A stretch of DNA of 64,000 bases, from the NCBI GenBank assembly GCA_900317745.1, contig ONHW01000006.1, positions 37,043 to 101,042 on the forward strand, given 5' to 3'. The notes below the pieces were generated by a model. That model worked only from the letters and a program-made list of their open reading frames with translations. It searched no databases and had not been told where the DNA came from. This document shows positions 5,022 through 52,566 of this stretch, in pieces (position 1 is the stretch's first letter; each line of letters opens with the position of its first letter). The DNA comes from an uncultured Bacteroidales bacterium. GTDB lineage: Bacteria > Bacteroidota > Bacteroidia > Bacteroidales > Paludibacteraceae. The translations under genes and the position numbers were made by a program.

Positions 5022-6314
5022 ATGAGTAACAATATAGCAATTGAATTTAACCACGTTAGCAAGCAATACAGATTAGGCTTGGTGAGTACGCAGACGCTGG
5101 CTCACGATATACGCCGATTCTGGATAACGAACGTGTTGGGCAAGGAAGACCCATACCTAAAAATCGGCGAGACCAATGATCGTGCCTCCAAAGGTAACTC
5201 GGAGTACGTGTGGGCACTGAAGGATATCGACTTCAAGATTGAGCAAGGCGATGTAGTAGGCATCATCGGCAAGAACGGTGCCGGCAAATCAACCTTGCTA
5301 AAACTCTTGAGTCGCGTAACTGGTCCAACGACAGGCACCATTCGCGCGCATGGACGAATAGGCTCCCTGCTGGAGGTCGGTACTGGATTCCACCCCGAGA
5401 TGACTGGTAGGGAGAATATATTCATGAACGGAGCCATCCTTGGAATGTCTCGTGCTGATATTCAACGCAAATTGGACGATATCATAGATTTCAGCGGTTG
5501 TGCACGATACATTGATACACCAGTCAAGCGATATAGTTCCGGTATGACTGTTCGCTTGGGTTTTGCTGTAGCTGCATTCCTCGAACCCGAGATTCTCGTA
5601 GTGGACGAGGTGCTCGCCGTCGGCGATGCAGAATTTCAGAAGAAAGCCATCGGCAAGATGCAGGATGTTAGCAAAGGCGAAGGGCGCACAGTGCTTTTTG
5701 TGAGTCATAATATGGCTTCTGTTCGGCAGCTATGTCATACCGGTATATTGTTAGAAAACGGTTCTATTGCCATGATGGGGAAGATGAGCGATGTGATTGA
5801 TACATATGTTTCTCAATCCTCAACTGACAAAGAACTAATCGGTGCAGTGTGGAATAAGAATAAGTTAGAGGATAAACCAATACAATTGATTCATGCAGAG
5901 GTGCAAAATGCAAATGGTGACCCCAAAACTTCGTTCTCTTGTGATGAAGACTTTTATGTAGAATTGACTTATAAAGTAGATGAAAAAGTCCCTGGAATGA
6001 CTTGTCTCTTTTCGTTGTTAAAATCGTATGATGACTCGTTTGTATTACAAACCGAGAGCAATGATACCGGTTTTAATTATGTGGAATCGATGTCGCAAGG
6101 AATAAATAGGTTCCGATTGCATTTCCCAAAACGTTTGATAGGACATGGTACGTACTTCGCACGTGCAACATTGCTCAGCAATTATAATTTTTCTGGACGT
6201 GTTATCGAAAAAATGGATCGCATTATCAAGTTTGATATATCTGATTATCGTACGCAACGTGGTAATTATCGTAATGGATATTTCAGTACGATAATTGATT
6301 GGGATTTGGCGTGA
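5022..6314 (+). CDS. wzt: Wzt-type ABC transporter ATPase with C-terminal glycan-binding domain
   Basis: A 430-residue ATPase of the O-antigen/teichoic-acid export class. Walker A GKNGAGKS is at 83-90, the signature YSSGM at 171-175, Walker B ILVVDE at 191-196 and the switch His at 229. Residues from about 275 to the end form a beta-rich extension like the Wzt C-terminal domain, which recognises the non-reducing end of the exported glycan. Such proteins pair with a Wzm permease, usually the adjacent gene; none is present in this window. Base composition changes inside the gene: the 60 bases from 5581 are 57% G+C and the 60 from 5941 are 32%, so the C-terminal domain appears to belong to the incoming AT-rich island. 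Confidence 0.93.
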   Translation: MSNNIAIEFNHVSKQYRLGLVSTQTLAHDIRRFWITNVLGKEDPYLKIGETNDRASKGNSEYVWALKDIDFKIEQGDVVGIIGKNGAGKSTLLKLLSRVTGPTTGTIRAHGRIGSLLEVGTGFHPEMTGRENIFMNGAILGMSRADIQRKLDDIIDFSGCARYIDTPVKRYSSGMTVRLGFAVAAFLEPEILVVDEVLAVGDAEFQKKAIGKMQDVSKGEGRTVLFVSHNMASVRQLCHTGILLENGSIAMMGKMSDVIDTYVSQSSTDKELIGAVWNKNKLEDKPIQLIHAEVQNANGDPKTSFSCDEDFYVELTYKVDEKVPGMTCLFSLLKSYDDSFVLQTESNDTGFNYVESMSQGINRFRLHFPKRLIGHGTYFARATLLSNYNFSGRVIEKMDRIIKFDISDYRTQRGNYRNGYFSTIIDWDLA

Positions 6315-6326
6315 TTCATTTTGATT

Positions 6327-8057
6327 ATGAATATGACAATTTCACATTATATAGGTGCTTCTAAGAAACTTTCTAAGAAAGTGATATGGAAAATAGACAG
6401 GGTGTTGTTCTCTGGCTATTTTCAAAATGCTCGTAATAAAGCGTTGGAGCAAAAGAGATTAGAAGAAGAGCGTTTTCGCATTGAGCATCCCGAGGAGTAT
6501 TATGATAAATATTCGGTTGCAGCAAGACATTGTTTCCCTGTTGTTGGCAACCAACTATATTCCGTGCGTGATCTTATTCTCTCGCAATTTGTAAGTGGAG
6601 TTTATAAGGGGTATGATATCACAGTGCGACTTTTAGCCATCGAACAATATTATGGGAAAAACTCAATAGGATACAGTTTATATCGTAAAATGCAATTTCC
6701 AACAGGTTTTGATTGGATTCCGCGATATTCAAAATTAATTGCTTCGTATGAGCAAAATGGCTTTGAAGATGATAATCCGATAGAAGTAGATGATCATCTG
6801 ACGCTGATGGATGGAGCACATCGTTTGGCTTTAGCGTTATATCATAACGATGAAATAGTACCTGCAAGAATTTACAAAAATGACAGAGAGCGGCCGTATG
6901 ATTATAATTGGTTTTGGCAAATGAATTTTTCAGCGGATGAAATTAGTTTGATTCATAACCGCACGGTAGAACTGTTTAATCAATGTAAATACGATTATGT
7001 AGGCGTGATTTGGTCGCCGGCTTATCATTTACGCGATGAAATAATAAATGCTATTAATTCATATCTACATTCTTCATATAATCCTCCGATTCAACAATGT
7101 GATTGTAAAGTTGTAAAATATGAAGATGTGACTCTTGACAAATTAGACTTTTTCGGATTCCTACGGGCTATGTATTACACAGATGTGATGACAGAAGAGG
7201 GGGTGCAGTGGAAACTGAAAAGTATGGTGGATAGCATGCCAGATGGTTGTGAACAGTATCCGGTACGTATATTTTATATTGAAACACTAAATCCGGAGAT
7301 TGATAGAAATGTAAAAAATAACACGGCCAAGTCAATGCTTATAGCTAAAATAAAGAATGTAATCCGTAGCCGCTATAAGAATCGTATCAATAAGTACGAG
7401 TATGACAATATAATGCATATAAGTGATAATTATATCCAAAGCAAGTTCTGTGATTTGGCAGTTAATATAGATAAAGATGTAAGCGACTTATTTGTGCAAT
7501 TGAATAAGCAATATGATTATGTAATAGCAAAAGCGTTTGGTCGTCAAAGCATTGATTTTCCGTATTATTATTATTATTATTATTCAGATGTTGATATAGT
7601 AGTTAGACCTTCTGATGTCCAGAAAGTTAGTGAGACAGCCGAGAAATGGTTAAATGAAAAATATGGAGGAAAATATGAAGAATGGCTTAGGGTTGAACGC
7701 AGACTTGACGACGAAGAACAAGTTGAAATACAAGTATCTTTAAGAGGCTGGAGGTTCTTCTTAGTGCATGTTCAGACGTTGGCTCATTTCTCAATGAATA
7801 ATGGCATTACTGATGAGTTTCTATCACATAGAGAACTCGCAGAAAATAAGCCTATTTATATCTTGCCGCCTATTTATGATATGCTTATTCGTGCAGCAGA
7901 TTTAGTTTTTAAGCCTCATAAGGATTGGCATCGTAGATATATTGCAAAGCATATAGATGAATTTGATGAACAATTGGCAGAAAAATCATTCAGCAACAAT
8001 CCTGATTTTCTGCAAAATGTAAAACAAATAATATCAGAAATACAGAGTTCAAAATGA
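6327..8057 (+). CDS. Putative ParB-like/nucleotidyltransferase-fold two-part protein
   Basis: A 576-residue protein of unknown function in the polysaccharide operon. The N-terminal part contains MDGAHRLALALYHND near residue 160, which resembles the ParB/sulfiredoxin-type DGxHR motif. The C-terminal part, after about residue 385, contains SDVDIVV, the G/S-D-x-D pattern of nucleotidyltransferase-fold proteins. A run of seven Tyr (413-419), encoded by TAT repeats, precedes that motif. The listed frame can begin at TTG 6321, but ATG 6327 is the better start. It follows wzt by 12 bases and overlaps the KdsB-like gene by ATGA. The joint domain arrangement is inference; enzymatic activity is not claimed. 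Confidence 0.55.
   Translation: MNMTISHYIGASKKLSKKVIWKIDRVLFSGYFQNARNKALEQKRLEEERFRIEHPEEYYDKYSVAARHCFPVVGNQLYSVRDLILSQFVSGVYKGYDITVRLLAIEQYYGKNSIGYSLYRKMQFPTGFDWIPRYSKLIASYEQNGFEDDNPIEVDDHLTLMDGAHRLALALYHNDEIVPARIYKNDRERPYDYNWFWQMNFSADEISLIHNRTVELFNQCKYDYVGVIWSPAYHLRDEIINAINSYLHSSYNPPIQQCDCKVVKYEDVTLDKLDFFGFLRAMYYTDVMTEEGVQWKLKSMVDSMPDGCEQYPVRIFYIETLNPEIDRNVKNNTAKSMLIAKIKNVIRSRYKNRINKYEYDNIMHISDNYIQSKFCDLAVNIDKDVSDLFVQLNKQYDYVIAKAFGRQSIDFPYYYYYYYSDVDIVVRPSDVQKVSETAEKWLNEKYGGKYEEWLRVERRLDDEEQVEIQVSLRGWRFFLVHVQTLAHFSMNNGITDEFLSHRELAENKPIYILPPIYDMLIRAADLVFKPHKDWHRRYIAKHIDEFDEQLAEKSFSNNPDFLQNVKQIISEIQSSK
7563..7583 (+). repeat. (TAT)7 microsatellite in coding sequence
   Basis: Seven perfect TAT codons encode Tyr413-Tyr419 of the gene at 6327. 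Changes in copy number would alter the protein length without shifting the frame, directly before the putative SDVDIVV active-site motif. Confidence 0.9.
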
Positions 8058-8791
8058 AAGTAGTAGGAATCATACCAGCGCGTTATGCCTCGACGCGTCT
8101 ACCAGGGAAACCGCTGAAAGATATATTGGGACATCCAATGATATGGTGGGTGTATCAACGTGTGTTGAATGCAAAACGACTTGATGAAGTATATGTGGCT
8201 ACGGATGACGAGCGGATTGCACAAGTCTGTGAAGAAAACCGGATTCCTGTTGTAATGACAGCTAACACTCATCGCACTGCAGCTCATAGGTTGCAAGAAG
8301 TTTCAGAAACGATCCATGCAGATTTCTATGTACAATTAAATGGTGATGAACCTTTGATAAATACTGATGCTATTGATGCCGTAGTTCCTAAGGAAATTCC
8401 GCAAGATATTGCTTTTGGAACGAATATCATCACTGAAATGACAGAACCGGCGCAAGTAATGGATCCGTCAAATATCAAGATGGCCTTTGATGAGAATATG
8501 AATGCACTCTATATGTCACGTACCCCCATACCATTCCCTTTTAAGGCAATTGATTTCAAGTACTACAAGCATGTTGGAATTATTGGATACAACAAAAAAA
8601 TGCTTGATTTGTACAGAGACACTCAACCCGGACGGTTTGAACTGATTGAAGGAATAGATACATTACGTTTTCTTGATTATGGGAAACAACTGAAGTTGAC
8701 ACTTGTCCCGAATTGTCATAGTCTTTCAGTAGATACGGAGCAAGATTTACAAATGGTTATTCAAATGATTAAGAATAATGGCAAAGCTTGA
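8054..8791 (+). CDS. KdsB-like CMP-ulosonate cytidylyltransferase (diverged)
   Basis: A 245-residue CMP-Kdo synthetase homologue. IIPARYASTRLPGKPL binds nucleotide, and NGDEPLI carries the metal-binding Asp/Glu. The first 80 residues align without gaps to the KdsB at 36849, but the substrate-side loop RTGTDR (74-79) is RTAAHR here, and NIQGDEP is QLNGDEP. That suggests a sugar acid other than plain Kdo. It overlaps its upstream neighbour (ATGA) and the downstream aldolase by 14 bases, so the genes are translated together. A GT52-like transferase, a family whose known members use CMP-sugars, is encoded at 11552. Confidence 0.85.
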   Translation: MKVVGIIPARYASTRLPGKPLKDILGHPMIWWVYQRVLNAKRLDEVYVATDDERIAQVCEENRIPVVMTANTHRTAAHRLQEVSETIHADFYVQLNGDEPLINTDAIDAVVPKEIPQDIAFGTNIITEMTEPAQVMDPSNIKMAFDENMNALYMSRTPIPFPFKAIDFKYYKHVGIIGYNKKMLDLYRDTQPGRFELIEGIDTLRFLDYGKQLKLTLVPNCHSLSVDTEQDLQMVIQMIKNNGKA

Positions 8792-10331
8792 TTTGAAATT
8801 ATTAGATTGCACGCTCCGTGACGGCGGATATGTTAATGATTGGAAGTGGGGATTTAACTCTGCCAGGAGTATCATATCATATCTAACGAAAGCACGTGTG
8901 GATATGGTGGAAGTTGGCTTCCTGCGTAATGTAGAAAGCTATAATCCCGATATAACGGTATGCAATCATATTGAGGAGTTAAACAAGTTACTGCCTGAAA
9001 AAACAGGCGAAACCATGTATTCCGCTATGGCAATGCGTAGTAATTATGATATTTCCAAACTCTCACCTTATTGTGGTAAGGGTATTGAGATGATACGTAT
9101 TACAGCGCATGATTATGATATAGCAGAAGGTATGGATTTCGCTCGCCAAGTGAAAGCATTGGGCTATAAACTCAGTATCAACCCTATCAATATTATGGGT
9201 TATTCAGACGAGCGCATACTTTGGATTATTGACCAGGTGAATCAGATTCAGCCTTATCAATTTGCTATAGTTGATACTTTCGGAAGTATGAAACGCCGTG
9301 ATTTGGATCGTATTGTAAGTTTGGTGGATAATAATCTGGATAAGAGCATCCGTGTCGCTCTGCATTTGCATGAGAACATGGCGTTAAGTTGTTGCTTGGC
9401 GCAGAACTTTGTGGACAAGCATCTTAATCGTCCTGTCGCTGTAGATGGCAGTCTGATGGGGATGGGACGCATACCGGGCAATTTACCTATTGAGCTAATC
9501 GCTGATTATCTGAATGATTACACGGATAAAGCATACGATATTGACTATCTAATGGATGCCATTCAAGACCACATCGCTCCAATTAAAGGTCAAGCAGAAT
9601 GGGGATATACTCCGGCTTATTTCTTATCCGCACGTTTTAATCTCCATCGCAACTATGCAGAGCATTATCTGAAGAAAGGCGATTTAACATGCCGAGACAT
9701 AAATCATTTGCTTTCACGTTTTGATAAGAACAAGAAAACAGCCTTTGATGCGGCGTATGCTGATAGTTTGTATGAAGAATATAAGAATAATCGGATAGAT
9801 GATAGTGTAGCAAGAAAGTCGTTGAAGAGAATTCTAAATGGTAAAGATGTATTGATATTAGCGCCTGGGAGAACGGTTTCCACTCATAAAGAGTCAATAT
9901 ATGCTTATGTCGCGAAGAATAAACCGATTGTAATTGCCGTCAATTTTATACCTACTGACATAAATGTTGATTATGTGTTTATCAGTAATGCACGCCGTTA
10001 TCAACAAACTGAAGAGGTGAAATGCAAGCGTATTATCACATCAAATGTGAAAGGCAATGCAGATTTTGTGCTGGACTACAATGGACTTTCAGGTGCATTT
10101 GAACAGGGCTGTAATAGTTATATCATGTTATTAAAACTCCTGTCACAGATGGGCGTTTCCAATATAGTTTCTGCAGGAGCGGATGGCTATAAACCCAACG
10201 AGGAGAATTACGCTAACAACTCCATGCGTAGTGAAACTGATCACGGAGTCCAATTTAATAATTCCGTGAAAGAGGCTATTCGAAACCTGAACGTGAATGT
10301 TACCTTTATAACTCCTTCCGCTTATGAGTAA
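8778..10331 (+). CDS. DRE-TIM (HMGL-like) aldolase with C-terminal DUF115-like domain
   Basis: A 517-residue protein. Residues 1-290 form a DRE-TIM metallolyase: LDCTLRDGGYVNDW supplies the Arg-Asp and metal ligand, LHLHENM the His-x-His pair, and DGSLMGMGRIPGN the conserved glycine loop, as in 4-hydroxy-2-oxovalerate aldolases. These enzymes make or break a C-C bond with pyruvate or an acyl donor. Residues from about 345 (DVLILAPGRTVSTHK) look like a separate Rossmann-type domain found in polysaccharide loci. Its place between a KdsB-like and a KdsC-like gene suggests it builds the ulosonic acid skeleton from pyruvate; that role is inference. Confidence 0.8.
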   Translation: MAKLDLKLLDCTLRDGGYVNDWKWGFNSARSIISYLTKARVDMVEVGFLRNVESYNPDITVCNHIEELNKLLPEKTGETMYSAMAMRSNYDISKLSPYCGKGIEMIRITAHDYDIAEGMDFARQVKALGYKLSINPINIMGYSDERILWIIDQVNQIQPYQFAIVDTFGSMKRRDLDRIVSLVDNNLDKSIRVALHLHENMALSCCLAQNFVDKHLNRPVAVDGSLMGMGRIPGNLPIELIADYLNDYTDKAYDIDYLMDAIQDHIAPIKGQAEWGYTPAYFLSARFNLHRNYAEHYLKKGDLTCRDINHLLSRFDKNKKTAFDAAYADSLYEEYKNNRIDDSVARKSLKRILNGKDVLILAPGRTVSTHKESIYAYVAKNKPIVIAVNFIPTDINVDYVFISNARRYQQTEEVKCKRIITSNVKGNADFVLDYNGLSGAFEQGCNSYIMLLKLLSQMGVSNIVSAGADGYKPNEENYANNSMRSETDHGVQFNNSVKEAIRNLNVNVTFITPSAYE

Positions 10332-10842
10332 ACGCTCAATAGAATATATAGTAATAGACGTGGATGGTACTCTTACAGATGCCGGCATTTATTATGATGA
10401 GCATGGTAATGAGCAAAAGAAGTTCTGCACAAAAGACGCAGCCGGATTCTTTGCCGCGAAGGCAGCAGGAATAAAGACGATTATTCTTACAGGTCGTGAA
10501 TGTGCTGCAACTACTCGTCGCATGCAGGAGCTAAAAGCAGATTATATCTACCAGAATGTAAAAGATAAAGTGTCTTTCCTACGCAAATTTATGACGGAAC
10601 ACCATATTGTGAAAGAGCAATTAGCATATATAGGAGACGATTTGAATGATTTGGCTCCTATGCAGTTGGCTGGATATGTGGCTTGCCCTGCGGATAGTTG
10701 TTCTGAGATTATACAGATTGCTGATTATGTTAGTCCTGTCAATGGTGGACACGGAGTCGTTAGGGATGTGATAGAACAGATGCTACGCGATAGCGATGAG
10801 TGGGATAGCACAGTAAGTAAAGTTTATGGAATAGGAATATAA
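10324..10842 (+). CDS. KdsC-like HAD phosphatase
   Basis: A 172-residue HAD type C0 phosphatase. Motif I is DVDGTLTD (nucleophile and acid Asp), motif II/III region ILTGRE, and motif IV GDDLNDL. The family removes the terminal phosphate from Kdo-8-P or nonulosonate-9-P before CMP activation. It overlaps the aldolase by 8 bases and is followed after 2 bases by the AraD-like gene. The C-terminus extends about 10 residues past the usual GGxGVxR motif. Substrate is unknown, probably the phosphorylated product of the pathway in this operon. Confidence 0.88.
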
Positions 10843-10844
10843 AT

Positions 10845-11540
10845 ATGTTGGAGAACCTGAAAGAAATAGTATGTGCAGCCAATAAAGAATTAGCCAATAG
10901 AGGTGTCGTTCTTTATACATGGGGCAATGTGAGTGGAATTGATCGCGAAAAAGGCTTGATTGTTATCAAACCCTCCGGAGTTCCTTATGAAGCCATGAAA
11001 CCGGATGATATGGTGGTTGTTACTCTGCAATCAGGTGATGTGGTAGAAGGAAAATATCGTCCGTCGTCAGATACCCCGACTCATTTGGAGATATATCGTG
11101 CCTTTCCTGAGATCGGGGGAATTGTACATACCCATTCGATTCACGCCGTAGCTTTTGCTCAAGCAGGAATGGATATTCCGGCGATAGGAACAACGCACGC
11201 AGATTATTTCTACGGCGATATTCCTTGTACTCGTCCGTTAAACGAAGAAGAAACGTTGGGAGCATACGAAGCTAATACTGGCAAGGTGATAGTGCAGACG
11301 ATGCAAGAACGTAAGATTAATCCGTTAGTTAATCCGGGTGTCTTGGTTTGTAATCATGGTCCATTCACTTTTGGTAAAGATGCTGCAGAAGCAGTACATA
11401 ACGCAGTTGTATTAGAAACAATCGCCGAAATGGATTTAAAAACGATGATGTTAAATCCCAACGCATCCATGCCACAATATATATTGGAGAAACATTATTC
11501 CCGCAAGCACGGAAAGAATGCCTATTACGGACAAAAGTAA
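10845..11540 (+). CDS. araD: L-ribulose-5-phosphate 4-epimerase-like class II aldolase
   Basis: A 231-residue protein matching AraD/UlaF/SgbE over its whole length: [23 protein letters not shown], then the Zn motif [20 protein letters not shown] and the ending [18 protein letters not shown]. The family interconverts L-ribulose-5-phosphate and D-xylulose-5-phosphate. No arabinose catabolic genes are nearby; instead it sits within the KdsB-like/aldolase/KdsC-like run, so it likely supplies a pentulose-phosphate precursor for an unusual sugar. Close relatives with fuculose-phosphate aldolase activity exist, but the C-terminal ending favours the epimerase. Confidence 0.87.
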
Positions 11541-11551
11541 TGTAATATAAT

Positions 11552-12541
11552 ATGAAGTTTTTAAGAAACATATGTTTAGTTGATACGCCTTATGCTTTAG
11601 CATTATATTTATTGATGATGCCGATGGAAGAGATTGAAAGAACAAAATTTATTACAAGTAGTATTTTAGACCGTCAAATTACAGAAAAACTACCGAATAA
11701 GTGCCTTAATTATTATGGATTTAATATAGGAAATGATTGGAAAAAATTGTTAAAGGTGAGGCTTCTGCGTTTTTACGAATACCCTTCTATCTTTTGGTCG
11801 AAGGTATATGCACAGGATCATTTGCGAATATCCGCACAGGTAATAGGTAAAAAGAACTATACATTAATTGCAGACGGACCTTATTTCTTGTATAACTATT
11901 CTAATTGTCCAAGACCAGCATTTGATATGGTCTCTCCTCGTTCTATTATAGGTAAAATTAAGTATAGTTTAGCATTTGGACGAACAATCTTTAACAAAGA
12001 GTATGGTCAGAATCAGCAATGTGCAAATCGCTGGCTGACAACAGCTATAGATGCTGAGACATATTTTGTGGCCAATAGAAAATATACACTTGTAGATTTA
12101 TCAGCATTGTGGGAAAAAGCATCAAAACTTAAAAAGACATACATACTTACTATTTTTTCATTATCAGAAGAACTTATTGATTATGCAAAGCAGGCGGATG
12201 TAATGATATTAACTCAACCTTTTCGTGAGGATTGCGGTTTGACAGATGAGGAGTATATTGAAATATATAAGCCGTATATTCAAAATTCGAAAAAAGTAGT
12301 GATAAAACCTCACCCCAGAGACAAATTCGATTTTGATAAATATTTTCCTACTATTCCGGTATTAAGAACATATATTCCTATGCAACTTCTTAATTTCATG
12401 GGAGTGATGCCACATATCGCGGTTACTGTTAATTCAACAGCAATATCTTCATTACCTAACAATGTAGAAAAAATAATGATAGGAACGAAAGTTAATAAGA
12501 AGATATTTGATAGATATGGAGATATGTTTAATGACAAATAG
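11552..12541 (+). CDS. Putative GT52-type (sialyltransferase-like) glycosyltransferase
   Basis: A 329-residue protein beginning ICLVDTPYALALY and carrying the C-terminal motif VVIKPHPRDKFDFD followed by VTVNSTAISS, the pattern of CMP-sialic-acid-using transferases of family GT52 and polysialyltransferase-like proteins. Such enzymes transfer an ulosonic acid from its CMP donor. The fit with the cytidylyltransferase at 8054 in the same operon supports this. Composition is strongly AT-rich. Sequence identity to known members appears low by eye, so the family call is moderate. Confidence 0.65.
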   Translation: MKFLRNICLVDTPYALALYLLMMPMEEIERTKFITSSILDRQITEKLPNKCLNYYGFNIGNDWKKLLKVRLLRFYEYPSIFWSKVYAQDHLRISAQVIGKKNYTLIADGPYFLYNYSNCPRPAFDMVSPRSIIGKIKYSLAFGRTIFNKEYGQNQQCANRWLTTAIDAETYFVANRKYTLVDLSALWEKASKLKKTYILTIFSLSEELIDYAKQADVMILTQPFREDCGLTDEEYIEIYKPYIQNSKKVVIKPHPRDKFDFDKYFPTIPVLRTYIPMQLLNFMGVMPHIAVTVNSTAISSLPNNVEKIMIGTKVNKKIFDRYGDMFNDK

Positions 12542-36332: not shown

Positions 36333-36821
36333 ATGCAAACAACTGACATAAAACTTTTCCTCTGCGACGTGGACGGCACGCTCACCGATGGAGGTATGTA
36401 CTACTCCGAGAACGGCGACGAACTCAAGAAGTTCAACACCCGCGATGGAATGGCGCTGAAGATCCTGCACGAGAACGGAATACCCACAGGTATCATTACC
36501 TCCGAGGATACGCAGATCGTTGCCCGTCGCGCTGCCAAACTCTCAGTGGACTATCTTCGCCAGGGCAAACGCGATGGTGGCAAACGTGCTGTTGCACAGC
36601 AGATTTGTGATGAGATGGGTATCACCATGCAGCAGGTCGCTTATATAGGTGATGACCTCAACTGCTACGACATCCTTTCTGCCGTGGGCTTTCCCGCCTG
36701 CCCGAGTGATGCTTGTGCCAAAGTGCGGAATATACCCGGCATACGGCTCTTGTCACGCAAGGGCGGTGATGCCGTTGTGCGCGAGTTTGCAGAGCAACTT
36801 TTCCCGGAACTATTTGAATAA
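36333..36821 (+). CDS. KdsC-type HAD phosphatase, Kdo/nonulosonate class
   Basis: A 162-residue HAD type C0 phosphatase. [26 protein letters not shown] and IGDDLNCYDI are the motifs. The second motif reads IITSEDTQIVARRAAKL in place of the ITGR form, which is closer to nonulosonate-9-phosphate (KDN-type) phosphatases than to canonical KdsC; so substrate may be Kdo-8-P or a nine-carbon acid. It directly precedes kdsB at 36849, matching the activation order. No KdsA or KdsD is in the window. Confidence 0.87.
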   Translation: MQTTDIKLFLCDVDGTLTDGGMYYSENGDELKKFNTRDGMALKILHENGIPTGIITSEDTQIVARRAAKLSVDYLRQGKRDGGKRAVAQQICDEMGITMQQVAYIGDDLNCYDILSAVGFPACPSDACAKVRNIPGIRLLSRKGGDAVVREFAEQLFPELFE

Positions 36822-36848
36822 TAACTGTTTGAATAATCTGTTTTTGCA

Positions 36849-37583
36849 ATGAAAACCATTGGCGTTATTCCTGCCCGCTATCAGTCCAGCCGTTTTCCCG
36901 GCAAACCGCTTGCCGATATCCTTGGCAAACCTATGATTTGGTGGGTGTATCAGCAGTGTATCAAGGTGCCGGAACTGAATGAGGTGTACGTCGCTACCGA
37001 CGACCGGCGCATCTATGATGTATGTGAGCAATACGGCATACAAGTCATTATGACCTCCGACCAATGCCGAACAGGTACGGATCGCGTGGGCGAAGTTGCC
37101 GCCAAGGTTGACGGCGACCTGTTTGTTAACATCCAGGGCGACGAACCGCTCATCGAACCGCAGATGATTCGTGACATAATCGGTATATTCAACGACGAAT
37201 CAGTATATTATGGTTCACTCCGCAAGCAGATTACCGACGAAGCCGAGATTCAGGCACCGAGTACAGTCAAGGTGGTTGTCGATAAGAACGAAGACGCTTT
37301 GTACTTCTCCCGCAGTGTTATTCCCTCGAACGTCAAGGATGGCAAATTGGCTCGTGTGTACCGCCATGTAGGGATTTATGCCTACAAACGCGATTTCCTG
37401 CAGACTTTCATTCATTTGCCTCCTGCCGAACTGGAGGCTGGTGAAGGGCTGGAGCAACTCCGGGCTCTGGAGAACGGCTACAAAATCCGTGTTCACGAGA
37501 CGCAGTTCGATACCATCGGAGTGGATCTGCCAGAGCATATAGCGATGGTCGAAGATCTTATCCGCGCACGCCGAGGTTCATAA
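36849..37583 (+). CDS. kdsB: CMP-Kdo synthetase (3-deoxy-manno-octulosonate cytidylyltransferase)
   Basis: A 244-residue enzyme with canonical features: GVIPARYQSSRFPGKPL, RTGTDRVGEV (74-83), NIQGDEPLIEP and the late EGLEQLRALENGY. It couples CTP to Kdo for lipopolysaccharide core or capsule. Because the partner phosphatase looks KDN-like, a related acid cannot be excluded. A weak intrinsic terminator follows. Compare the diverged homologue at 8054. Confidence 0.9.
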   Translation: MKTIGVIPARYQSSRFPGKPLADILGKPMIWWVYQQCIKVPELNEVYVATDDRRIYDVCEQYGIQVIMTSDQCRTGTDRVGEVAAKVDGDLFVNIQGDEPLIEPQMIRDIIGIFNDESVYYGSLRKQITDEAEIQAPSTVKVVVDKNEDALYFSRSVIPSNVKDGKLARVYRHVGIYAYKRDFLQTFIHLPPAELEAGEGLEQLRALENGYKIRVHETQFDTIGVDLPEHIAMVEDLIRARRGS

Positions 37584-49807: not shown

Positions 49808-51178
49808 TTATTTCTTCCTCCTTACGTCAATCACTTCTCCCGTTGCATCCGAGAATACCGTATTAAACGATGCTACCGCTACATCCTCGGCAGGCAGTAG
49901 TGTGCCCTCTGGTTCGTTGCCGAAGTTCTGCACACGCATGGGCGTTTTGGTGCGTTCCGGATTGATGCAATTAACGCGAATGCCGAAATCGTGCCATTCT
50001 TCCGCTATAGCCTGTACGAAGTTTACAATGGCAGCTTTCGTCGCCGAATACAGACTGTACATCATTCGTCCGCGGGTGTAACTGCTGCTTGTATAGAACA
50101 AAAGTGAACCGCGCGAGTTATGCAGATATGGGAAGGCTTCGCGAGCCACATTGATCACGCCCATCAGGTTGATGTTGATGGATGCCGATATGTCCTCTTG
50201 GGTCATAGAGGTCAATGCCTGCTTGTGCAGCACTCCCGCGGTGTTCACCACGATGTCAATATGCCCTTCTTTTGCGGCAACTTCGCTCAATGCGGCACGA
50301 ACATTGTCAGCCTTCGATACGTCGCAACCGTTTTGTGTCCTTGAAAAGGAATATACACGTGCCTTGTATTGTTGAGCCAACTTGATCATCTCTCCGCCTA
50401 TGCCGTAACTGCCGCCGAAGATTACAATCACTTTCTTCTGCAATCCCTGTATAGCCTCCTCTGACAGATGTTTCTGCTCGCCGCTTTGGGTGCGTAACTG
50501 GAACAGTTTGTCCAGCAAGAACAGATCCTCCAGATAGGTCAGTTTCATGTTGGAGTTATCGCCTTTTACCACATAGATAGGCTCATTAGGCAAGTATTTC
50601 CTTACTGTTCCACAATCGTCTGTCGTTACAAAATTCGGGTCGGCTAACGCAATCTCGTACGCCCGGCGTATTGTCCCGCGCTTGAAGCATTGCGGCGTTT
50701 GGCCGTTGCGCAGGTAGGCGCGGTTGGGAATGAAATCTATGCACTCGTTGGCATCCACCGAGATAATCGTATCTGTGGTCTTGGATGCTACATCCACGGC
50801 ATTGTAGTGCTTGAGCGCCTCAATGCAGTCCTGTATGATCCGCTCGTTCACAAGCGGGCGCACTGCGTCGTGAAACAGCATATTGGCATTATCATCCTCA
50901 TACGCATTGATAGCTGCCAGACTGCTGTCGTAGCGCTCCTTGCCGCCGTTCAGAATCTTGCGAACTTTCTTGTACCGGTTCTTGACAACCAGACTCTCAA
51001 CCTCCGATACATAATCGGGCTTGCTGACTATACATATCTCGTCTATCAAAGCACATTTGTCAAACACATCTATTGTGTGTTCGATCACCTGTTTCCCGGC
51101 AACTTTCAGAAATTGCTTGGGGGTATCGTTGCCTAATCGGGTACCACTGCCTCCGGCAAGTATGATTGCTATATTCAT
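49808..51178 (-). CDS. Bcs1-like CDP-ribitol pyrophosphorylase / ribulose-5-phosphate reductase
   Basis: A 456-residue fusion. Residues 1-225 are an IspD/TarI-type cytidylyltransferase (LAGGSGTRLGNDTPKQFL at 7-24, HDAVRP, TPQCFKR). Residues 248-456 are an SDR with VIFGGSYGIGGE and the Tyr/Lys pair in YSLYSATKAA. The arrangement is that of Haemophilus Bcs1/Acs1, which reduces ribulose-5-phosphate to ribitol-5-phosphate and couples it to CTP. Sequence upstream of ATG 51178 in the same frame to 51838 belongs to the polymerase gene in another frame and is ignored. Followed by licD. Confidence 0.9.
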   Translation of the reverse strand: MNIAIILAGGSGTRLGNDTPKQFLKVAGKQVIEHTIDVFDKCALIDEICIVSKPDYVSEVESLVVKNRYKKVRKILNGGKERYDSSLAAINAYEDDNANMLFHDAVRPLVNERIIQDCIEALKHYNAVDVASKTTDTIISVDANECIDFIPNRAYLRNGQTPQCFKRGTIRRAYEIALADPNFVTTDDCGTVRKYLPNEPIYVVKGDNSNMKLTYLEDLFLLDKLFQLRTQSGEQKHLSEEAIQGLQKKVIVIFGGSYGIGGEMIKLAQQYKARVYSFSRTQNGCDVSKADNVRAALSEVAAKEGHIDIVVNTAGVLHKQALTSMTQEDISASININLMGVINVAREAFPYLHNSRGSLLFYTSSSYTRGRMMYSLYSATKAAIVNFVQAIAEEWHDFGIRVNCINPERTKTPMRVQNFGNEPEGTLLPAEDVAVASFNTVFSDATGEVIDVRRKK

Positions 51179-52566
51179 GGGGTTGTTGTTTTTGCTTTTT
51201 GTTGTAATGTTACCTCGCGGAAGTCTTTCAATAGGAACATCAGTATGAAATATACTGCTAAAATCCAAACTATCAGCGGGATTATTGTATATAGTCCTGC
51301 GCGTGGCAGGAAGGTGAAGTTCATCAATACGCCGGCAACAATCACCGATGCAAGGGCGGATGTGCGGCTCTTGTCTTCTATCAGCGAACAACCTAACCCG
51401 AATAGTACCGAAAGAATAATAAAACCCGTGTAGGTCCGACCGGAGTATAGGTACAGGTCTGACAGCAACGTCCAACCCAATCCGTGACCGCTCGCAAATA
51501 GTTCGGGGGACAATGTGTATGCCAAATAATTGGCGAACGAGGCTTCTTCCCCAGGCAAAGGCATTACCAACGATGTCAGGGAAGCTATGCCCGGAATAAA
51601 ACTGACGAAATACGGCAGAATAGGGTAACATTCTATTTCTTGCGATGAAGTGAATGTGGTTAGCGATACGCCTTGTTGGTAGAAGAATCCGCACAAATTG
51701 TATAGTGACGAGACGGAGTCGTTTGCCCCGATCTGGCGGATGGATAACGATGCTATCCCCACAAGAACCAACAGAGCAATGCCGGCAAATATACCTATCT
51801 TGACAATGTTCACTTTCTTGTTCCGCAGGAAGTACCATAGTAGGAATAGCAGCATTGAGCCGAACTTAGCGCGTTGCCCAATCAAAATGAAAACCAATGC
51901 TTTGATAGACAGAAGAATCAAGTACAGAATCTTCGTGCTCTTCTTGCCATATACCAATGCTATGCCTACAAATACGTACAGCATCGACGCTATCAATCCG
52001 CTTCCGGCTGATACGTTTTCAGTTTGTTCTTGATATATGGACAGGTAGCCGTCTCCACTTGCTGCCGTGGTGAGCTTGTTGAATACGTCATGCAAGGTGA
52101 ATGGTGCTAAGAGGCAGAACATCACCAACAGAACGATGTCGATTGACATCTTGTCTGTGCGCTTTAGTGAAAAGTAGGGCTGCCCCTTTTGTTTGCGCGG
52201 GTAGAGCAGATAGCCGCCGGTGGATAGGTGCAGGAAGAGCAGAACATAGGTCAGCGATTGCTTCCACAACGCATCCTTGATATAATGCTCGTTGAAGAAG
52301 TTGCCTCGCCTCAGCATAAACTCATCCGGCATAACCAGCTCTGCCCAGAATCGGCCACCGATAAACAGGAACGTAAATGTCGCCATGAACAGGAAGAACG
52401 GTGACAGCCTCTCTGCCTTCCATATAACATACAATATCCAGCTGAAGTTCAGACACATCAGCACCGAATATCCGAATTCGGACATTGGTATCAGCCATAG
52501 CATAAAGAGGCTTGTTGCAAGCCATGCTATGCTAATCAGTGCATGTATGTGTTGTCTGTTAATCAT
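51175..52566 (-). CDS. Wzy-like membrane polymerase
   Basis: A 463-residue integral membrane protein with about eleven hydrophobic segments. MINRQHIHALISIAWLATSL begins the first. There is little recognisable sequence beyond topology and the long loop near residues 290-360 with SLTTFTSSQEIECYP. It lies between a Stealth transferase and a Bcs1-like gene in a Wzx operon without another polymerase, so polymerase is the best call. It overlaps the next gene by ATGA. Confidence 0.68.
   Translation of the reverse strand: MINRQHIHALISIAWLATSLFMLWLIPMSEFGYSVLMCLNFSWILYVIWKAERLSPFFLFMATFTFLFIGGRFWAELVMPDEFMLRRGNFFNEHYIKDALWKQSLTYVLLFLHLSTGGYLLYPRKQKGQPYFSLKRTDKMSIDIVLLVMFCLLAPFTLHDVFNKLTTAASGDGYLSIYQEQTENVSAGSGLIASMLYVFVGIALVYGKKSTKILYLILLSIKALVFILIGQRAKFGSMLLFLLWYFLRNKKVNIVKIGIFAGIALLVLVGIASLSIRQIGANDSVSSLYNLCGFFYQQGVSLTTFTSSQEIECYPILPYFVSFIPGIASLTSLVMPLPGEEASFANYLAYTLSPELFASGHGLGWTLLSDLYLYSGRTYTGFIILSVLFGLGCSLIEDKSRTSALASVIVAGVLMNFTFLPRAGLYTIIPLIVWILAVYFILMFLLKDFREVTLQQKAKTTTP

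Follow-up and report, generated by a model that had tools for sequence, protein, structure and literature searches.

A candidate pathway to a CMP-activated 2-keto-3-deoxy sugar acid with an aldolase as putative skeleton builder in an uncultured Bacteroidales bacterium

Within 64,000 nucleotides (nt) from an uncultured Bacteroidales bacterium (Paludibacteraceae; contig ONHW01000006.1 of assembly GCA_900317745.1, positions 37,043 to 101,042; genome 95.6% complete), referred to here as the window, five tightly coupled genes code for a KdsB-like synthetase, a DRE-TIM aldolase, a KdsC-family phosphatase, an AraD-family epimerase, and a GT52-like glycosyltransferase. We favor, with moderate confidence, the reading in which this operon serves to produce and use a sugar acid of the 2-keto-3-deoxy type, activated with cytidine monophosphate (CMP), distinct from 3-deoxy-D-manno-octulosonate (Kdo), and built by the aldolase. 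On sequence grounds, the aldolase is probably the builder of the acid. The basis for the pathway is gene linkage, recurrence, the loss of a Gln that grips Kdo, and occurrence in genomes without KdsA or a strong NeuB match, whereas its catalytic steps, acceptor, and product are what we infer. The genes of the operon are the following.

8054..8791, plus strand: putative KdsB-like CMP-ulosonate synthetase, 245 amino acids (TIGR00466; Asp98 and Asp227 kept, Gln96 replaced by Asn in the motif NGDEP, loop TAAHR)
8778..10331, plus strand: DRE-TIM (HMGL-like) pyruvate-aldolase-like enzyme, 517 amino acids (PF00682; residues 1 to ~300 resemble 4-hydroxy-2-oxovalerate aldolase)
9798..10328, plus strand: C-terminal Rossmann-like domain of the aldolase (remote resemblance to SteA, thiamin pyrophosphokinase, and MptE-like proteins)
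10324..10842, plus strand: KdsC-family HAD phosphatase (TIGR01670; the best match, below cut-off, is a 2-keto-3-deoxynononate [KDN]-9-phosphate phosphatase model)
10845..11540, plus strand: AraD, L-ribulose-5-phosphate 4-epimerase family (NF006047; only copy found in the genome, no AraA found)
11552..12541, plus strand: GT52/polysialyltransferase (polyST)-type glycosyltransferase, candidate CMP-sugar user (PF07922)

A preliminary description of this DNA, made from the sequence alone, had presented these genes as one tightly coupled set at 8054 to 12541. All five open reading frames (ORFs) were indeed found there on the plus strand; the KdsB-like and aldolase ORFs overlap, as do those of the aldolase and the HAD, and gaps of 2 and 11 nt separate HAD from AraD and AraD from the GT52 gene. 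The family calls, including the extra domain of the aldolase, were confirmed by NCBIfam and Pfam scores. The KdsB-like protein exceeded the cut-off of PRK05450.1-5 (236.3 bits; cut-off, 193) and fell under those of PRK13368.1 (241.7/255), PRK05450.1-3 (210.1/234), and the strictest model, PRK05450.1-1 (143.9/281). The HAD passed the KdsC-family model TIGR01670 (123.7 bits; cut-off, 106.95) and stayed below the cut-offs of its best match, the KDN-9-phosphatase model NF058599 (137.8/180), and of the KdsC model NF007019 (126.4/208). The glycosyltransferase passed PF07922 (64.9 bits; gathering score, 26.1).

The aldolase passed the HMGL-like model PF00682 (54.9 bits; cut-off, 29) and lay far below the cut-off of the 4-hydroxy-2-oxovalerate aldolase equivalog TIGR03217 (60.1 versus 286 bits). 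Its Arg14-Asp15 and His196-x-His198 align with DmpG (PDB 1nvm), and all four residues are invariant across 38 aligned aldolases; by their roles in DmpG, they correspond to the Arg-Asp pair and the metal-binding His-x-His of the DRE-TIM site. The predicted structure has a mean local confidence score (pLDDT) of 90.8, and its N-terminal part matches 3dxi (template modeling [TM] score of 0.81 by target, 24% identity) and 1nvm (TM score of 0.74). Folded alone, the C-terminal domain reached a pLDDT of 94.2 and gave SteA as its best Foldseek match (TM score of 0.56 by query, E value of 7e-4), with thiamin pyrophosphokinase lower among the structure matches. Pfam models run on 38 family members reported MptE-like in 6 and CST-I in 1, and a PDB profile search with the domain returned nothing below an E value of 0.16. 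Given these sparse matches and SteA as the best one, only a Rossmann-like fold is claimed, and neither the GT42/MptE-like origin that sequence motifs had brought to mind nor any particular role of the domain is supported. Since some relatives have no such domain (for example, L090, with 345 amino acids), the main proposal does not depend on it.

To follow the operon across genomes, we used a named-genome scan that took the best 80 of at least 545 confirmed aldolase relatives, with flanks of up to 9 kb, often shortened by contig ends, and neighbors called with profiles from the window and related proteins. A KdsB- or NeuA-type gene was present in 67 of the 80 loci (KdsB-type in 41, NeuA-type in 27), a KdsC-type gene in 40, and a KdsC- or PGP-type HAD in 58. 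As a control for linkage, other genes of at least 200 amino acids were drawn 10,000 times from the same loci. A synthetase gene lay within 300 bp of the aldolase and on the same strand in 56 of the 80 loci, against 6.2 expected and a highest draw of 15; the corresponding count for a KdsC- or PGP-type HAD within 300 bp was 47, against 4.3 expected and a highest draw of 13. This supports the notion that the aldolase, a CMP-sugar synthetase, and a phosphatase form a recurrent unit. Aldolases beside CMP-sugar synthetase genes occur in Bacteroidota, Bacillota, Verrucomicrobiota, Fusobacteriota, Campylobacterota, Melainabacteria, and Pseudomonadota, and in the Leisingera plasmid loci L015 and L017 the aldolase, KdsB, and HAD genes stand in a row. 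The aldolase itself is sporadic, being found in 8 of 395 genomes across the phylum and in 52 of 300 in the family (own genome in both counts); within the family, full-length matches were limited to the own genome and 11 others.

Conservation of the whole five-gene set, by which the preliminary description proposed to check its pathway, was not borne out: AraD occurs in 3 of the 80 loci and a GT52/polyST-type gene in 25, which rules out the five genes as one conserved set. Neither gene was enriched within 300 bp of the aldolase (AraD in 0 of 80 loci versus 0.3 expected, glycosyltransferase in 1 versus 1.6), and the transferase varies between loci. Among 40 clusters of unlabeled neighbors (at least four loci each, judged by eye, some representatives scanned), we recognized none as a sugar isomerase or kinase from which the acceptor could be deduced. 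One neighbor cluster, found in L076, L083, L096, L099, L100, L106, L108, L115, L118, L119, L121, and L135, has a representative (L100, 325 amino acids) that matches MptE-like PF01973 and could be an alternative CMP-sugar transferase. In L058 to L062, short aldolases with no C-terminal domain lie beside NeuA-type synthetases and a ThDP (thiamin diphosphate) enzyme apparently split over two consecutive ORFs; L058 carries two synthetase genes in tandem.

In the KdsB-like synthetase, Asp98 and Asp227 are invariant in 24 aligned sequences; PMC3149649 and PMC2901514 give the roles of the two magnesium-binding Asp residues of CMP-Kdo synthetase. For the capsule enzyme, with Gln96, Asp98, and Asp225, PMC2901514 describes the Gln of QGDEP as bonding the sugar. 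In the alignment to 1gq9, this Gln is replaced by Asn in the window enzyme (NGDEP), while QGDEP is kept in the other KdsB of the genome and in the three PDB KdsBs compared. We surveyed 47 KdsB-like proteins of more than 250 bits from 101 loci (the 80 named ones, 20 further ones, and the window's first 20 kb). Gln96 was lost in 33, and the same 33 do not have the G[STA]DR loop, while the other 14 keep both, a correlation over related rows that is uncorrected for relatedness. The residue replacing Gln96 in the 33 proteins is Asn in 19, Met in 8, Cys in 2, Gly in 2, and Leu in 1, and the L047 motif reads INSDEP. The loop contrast seen earlier, TAAHR in the operon enzyme versus TGTDR in the other KdsB of the window, proved correct, and in the alignments it accompanies a change at the sugar-binding residue itself. 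Because of the Asn at the Gln position in the window enzyme and the joint loss of Gln and canonical loop in 33 of 47, the acid activated here is probably not Kdo, as had been suggested from the loop. As a separate observation, in L097, L099, L102, L106, and L108 the aldolase adjoins a KdsB that keeps Gln96 and a TGSDR loop; the two genomes tested among those five, those of L097 and L099, have no KdsA over the cut-off, a possible sign that Kdo or a close isomer is made there independently of KdsA.

Other genes of the window that serve as context or comparison are listed next.

5022..6314, plus strand: Wzt/TagH-like ABC exporter ATPase, upstream context (below NCBIfam cut-offs)
6321..8057, plus strand: 578-amino-acid protein, context (no Pfam match; its stop overlaps the KdsB-like start codon)
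36333..36821, plus strand: KdsC-like HAD adjoining the ordinary KdsB, comparison (PF00702; matches the same relatives as the operon HAD)
36849..37583, plus strand: ordinary KdsB of the same genome, comparison (QGDEP, TGTDR)

The exporter ATPase is 68% identical to the ATPase beside a related operon in L054, and the five genes are followed downstream by an NAD-dependent epimerase and then glycosyltransferases, so that the region has the look of a locus for a surface polysaccharide. A protein at 32365-33414 matches the uncharacterized nucleotidyltransferase family PF14907 and resembles the 578-amino-acid protein, as judged by eye only.

KdsA and NeuB, the usual skeleton builders, had been described as absent, which is right for the operon and, for NeuB, also for the window genome, where our search gave no match. 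KdsA, in contrast, is present elsewhere in the genome (377.4 bits, contig C20) and adjoins KdsD (308.7 bits). With KdsA and KdsD on C20 and with kdsB and the KdsC-like gene at 36333-37583, the normal Kdo route looks complete, so that the operon appears as an extra gene set. We searched 46 of the 80 named genomes for KdsA and NeuB, and for KdsD 32 of those 46 together with G000 and G414. KdsA was over its cut-off in 4 of the 46 aldolase-carrying genomes. The NeuB Pfam model reported 40 of 46, including matches of 25 to 51 bits that fall on the same ORFs as weak KdsA-model matches and appear to be 3-deoxy-D-arabino-heptulosonate 7-phosphate (DAHP) synthases; 22 genomes had no NeuB match above 120 bits. 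Neither KdsA over the cut-off nor NeuB above 120 bits was found in 20 of the 46, and in 18 of those 20 the locus contains a synthetase. Cultured strains among the 20 include Mediterraneibacter glycyrrhizinilyticus, two Paenibacillus, Robinsoniella peoriensis, Proteocatella sphenisci, and Flavonifractor sp. An82. KdsD was over its cut-off in only 4 of 34 genomes, which led us to reject it as a general supplier of the acceptor; D-arabinose 5-phosphate is therefore not obviously available in the other 30.

To gain an idea about the history of the aldolase, we built a quick tree of 100 sequences. The window protein falls into a clade of 34 rows (SH-aLRT support, 100) in which a synthetase is present in 34 of 34 loci (24 of KdsB type), a KdsC-type gene in 30, and AraD in 4. 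Its nearest rows are Bacillota metagenome-assembled genomes (MAGs) and isolates, with 74% identity to L067; the window's own family enters the clade through one locus (L047), and own-genus rows fall outside it. This suggests that the aldolase was acquired by horizontal transfer. Over the tree, the type of partner (KdsB, NeuA, ThDP, or none) changes at least 23 times, a raw count with no shuffled-label comparison. Such repeated swaps of synthetase type beside the same aldolase would be expected if the aldolase product is the substrate of the synthetase.

In the pathway that we propose, the DRE-TIM enzyme would bind a pyruvate enolate on a divalent metal and add it to a phosphorylated aldehyde, with a 2-keto-3-deoxy-ulosonate phosphate as the product; this step would replace the synthases KdsA and NeuB, which depend on phosphoenolpyruvate (PEP). 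The KdsC/KDN-phosphatase-like HAD would then remove the phosphate and draw the reversible aldol reaction forward, the KdsB-like enzyme would join the acid to CMP from cytidine triphosphate (CTP), and the GT52-like enzyme would transfer it into an exported surface polysaccharide. The route from aldolase through phosphatase to CMP activation, as first sketched, thus keeps its core in the recurrent three-gene unit and the pocket unlike that of Kdo enzymes, but its opening step and the five-gene set do not stand. In that step, a pentulose phosphate was turned into an aldehyde; AraD belongs to the pentulose-phosphate 4-epimerases, whose known reaction yields another ketose, so AraD was rejected as aldehyde maker and the aldehyde-forming step has no enzyme in the operon. 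AraD may instead be an accessory in a few loci that supplies L-ribulose 5-phosphate. AraD breaks and remakes the C3-C4 bond, beta to the C2 keto group, and a more speculative alternative is that it could invert C4 of the 2-keto-3-deoxy acid phosphate, in which the 4-hydroxyl would occupy the same beta position relative to the keto group as in the regular AraD substrate.

Several observations weigh against this pathway. In the alignment to 1nvm, the aldolase has Tyr18 at the position of a DmpG His, located after the DG motif, that we take to be catalytic. NeuB matches above 120 bits occur in 24 of the 46 searched genomes, for which completeness values are not given and many of which are MAGs. 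The NeuA-type label was assigned by resemblance, from home-made profiles, and of the two such partners tested, that of L048 scored 76.7 bits on PseF (cut-off, 205.7) and that of L050 had no NCBIfam match at 1e-20. The restriction of the scan to the best 80 relatives, the uncorrected relatedness behind the pocket correlation, and the raw nature of the count of partner changes belong here as well. So does the finding that the KdsB-like protein passes the NCBIfam kdsB equivalog TIGR00466 (162.6 bits; cut-off, 155.2), which, together with the KdsA and KdsD of the genome, would suit a second CMP-Kdo synthetase for a capsule, like KpsU, fed by these two enzymes and unrelated to the aldolase product. 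We consider this quite unlikely: the genome already has an ordinary kdsB with a KdsC-like gene, the change of Gln96 to Asn and the altered loop are common to related enzymes in other phyla, and KdsB-like genes adjoin the aldolase in genomes with no KdsA over the cut-off. A KdsA-independent route to Kdo or a close stereoisomer would account for the 14 of 47 linked enzymes with Gln96 and a canonical loop, some of them in genomes with no KdsA over the cut-off, but it is very improbable for the window, whose operon enzyme has no Gln96, and KdsD is scarce in the genomes searched. A last point against the pathway is the group of 13 loci, out of 80, in which no synthetase was seen. Two of them (L124 and L136) end at a contig edge just upstream, and the remaining 11 contain an acetolactate-synthase-like ThDP enzyme, so that in part of the family the product would go elsewhere. 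Including those 11, acetolactate-synthase-like genes are found in 14 loci, 7 of which contain RfbH-like neighbors of one BLAST cluster, whose L111 member is RfbH by NCBIfam. Such loci would fit an aldolase whose 2-keto acid is an acyl or side-group donor and is not CMP-activated, with the synthetase and phosphatase belonging to a neighboring pathway. This appears unlikely, as a ThDP gene was found in none of the 34 loci of the window clade and a synthetase in all of them. ThDP genes also showed no excess within 300 bp of the aldolase (2 of 80 loci versus 2.2 expected). Since 2-keto acids are substrates for both such CMP synthetases and such ThDP enzymes, the ThDP loci fit an aldolase that makes 2-keto-3-deoxy acids, yet appear to show that this aldolase also serves purposes other than CMP activation. 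The ThDP loci with RfbH-like genes (L111, L114, L130, L132, L138, L140, and L146) may make branched sugars from an aldolase-derived 2-keto acid.

Whether AraD belongs to the proposed CMP-ulosonate pathway was weighed separately, with its flanks taken from six genomes and ORFs examined in three. The protein passes NF006047 (365.5/257) and NF009003 (356.8/331), lies under the TIGR00760 cut-off (351.9 versus 389.1), and matches the E. coli AraD structures (PDB 1jdi and 1k0w) over its full length. As it is the only AraD found in the window genome, and as a search for AraA found none there, it probably does not serve arabinose use. AraD could instead serve a pentitol or pentose branch outside the ulosonate pathway, e.g., a CDP-pentitol route with an IspD and a short-chain dehydrogenase (SDR) enzyme, which we regard as a real possibility, albeit one that we lean against. 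In G703, the genome of L076, AraD and the aldolase are on different contigs; an IspD-type cytidylyltransferase, an NAD-dependent epimerase, a LicD-domain protein, and AraD stand in a row there in a polysaccharide locus (L166:494-5027), a hint that AraD may serve a polysaccharide pathway of the pentitol type. The window itself has an IspD-type cytidylyltransferase fused to a short-chain dehydrogenase at 49808-51838 (minus strand), which we take to resemble the layout of bifunctional CDP-ribitol synthases. In G694, with the closest aldolase, the only AraD found adjoins an apparent ascorbate (ula) operon and looks catabolic. On the other side, AraD lies here between phosphatase and glycosyltransferase, and the order KdsB-aldolase-KdsC-AraD recurs in the Clostridia MAG L077; L085 has the same order interrupted by a gene of 244 amino acids, its AraD being truncated where the contig ends, and the Akkermansia MAG L075 reads aldolase-KdsC-AraD-KdsB. 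In the L077 and L075 genomes, as in that of the window, the locus AraD is the only one found. An essential role of AraD in the pathway is counted against by the 77 of 80 named loci without it, which also favor the pentitol branch, by G414, where the aldolase is 53% identical and no AraD was found in the genome, and by the G703 locus. In G710, AraD lies among transporter genes ~19 kb from the aldolase, apparently on one contig. In a small AraD tree, the operon copies did not group together as a separate clade, and we do not count it in favor of the pathway that 19 of 21 genomes have an AraD at some position.

To our knowledge, only PEP-condensing synthases of the KdsA and NeuB types are generally taken to build CMP-activated acids. 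Literature searches, whose coverage left subscription journals largely aside, brought up no paper that we recognized as describing such a pathway, and we rate the system as a variant of CMP-ulosonate pathways in which the skeleton builder would be of a new type. A wider idea, which we put forward tentatively and hold to be somewhat short of probable, is that widespread DRE-TIM pyruvate aldolases form a third class of ulosonic-acid builders making several 2-keto-3-deoxy acids distinct from both Kdo and sialic acids, with remodeled KdsB pockets (Asn, Met, Gly, Cys, or Leu), one type per acid, and AraD acting as a C4-epimerase in some loci. If an aldolase family does build such acids, common bacteria would contain CMP-sugars beyond CMP-Kdo and CMP-nonulosonates; among these bacteria would be Bacillota in which no KdsA was found, although their KdsB-like protein would receive the annotation Kdo cytidylyltransferase. 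The gene set is directly testable, suggests new acidic surface sugars to seek, and advises caution with automatic KdsB annotation.

Compared with known systems, the proposed pathway shares with the Kdo pathway (KdsD, KdsA, KdsC, and KdsB) a phosphorylated ulosonate, a KdsC-family phosphatase, and CMP activation by a KdsB-family enzyme. It would differ in having a skeleton builder of the pyruvate-aldolase type in place of the PEP-dependent KdsA, in a KdsB-like enzyme that has neither Gln96 nor the GTDR loop, and in that KdsD is not over its cut-off in 30 of the 34 genomes tested. With the NeuB/NeuA pathways to nonulosonates (sialic acid and KDN) it has in common CMP activation, a KDN-9-phosphatase-like HAD, a GT52/polyST-type transferase, and, in 27 of the 80 related loci, a NeuA-type synthetase; unlike them, it has no NeuB in the operon, and none was found in the window genome. 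The AraD resembles that of E. coli over its full length but lies in a polysaccharide operon of a genome in which no AraA was found. The closest solved N-terminal domain of the aldolase is that of BVU_2661 (3dxi), which is named a putative aldolase and solved for this domain only. The 4-hydroxy-2-oxovalerate aldolases DmpG and BphI (1nvm) share with it the N-terminal fold and the Arg-Asp and His-x-His positions, whereas the window aldolase has Tyr18 for His, an extra C-terminal domain, and no aldehyde dehydrogenase among the five genes.

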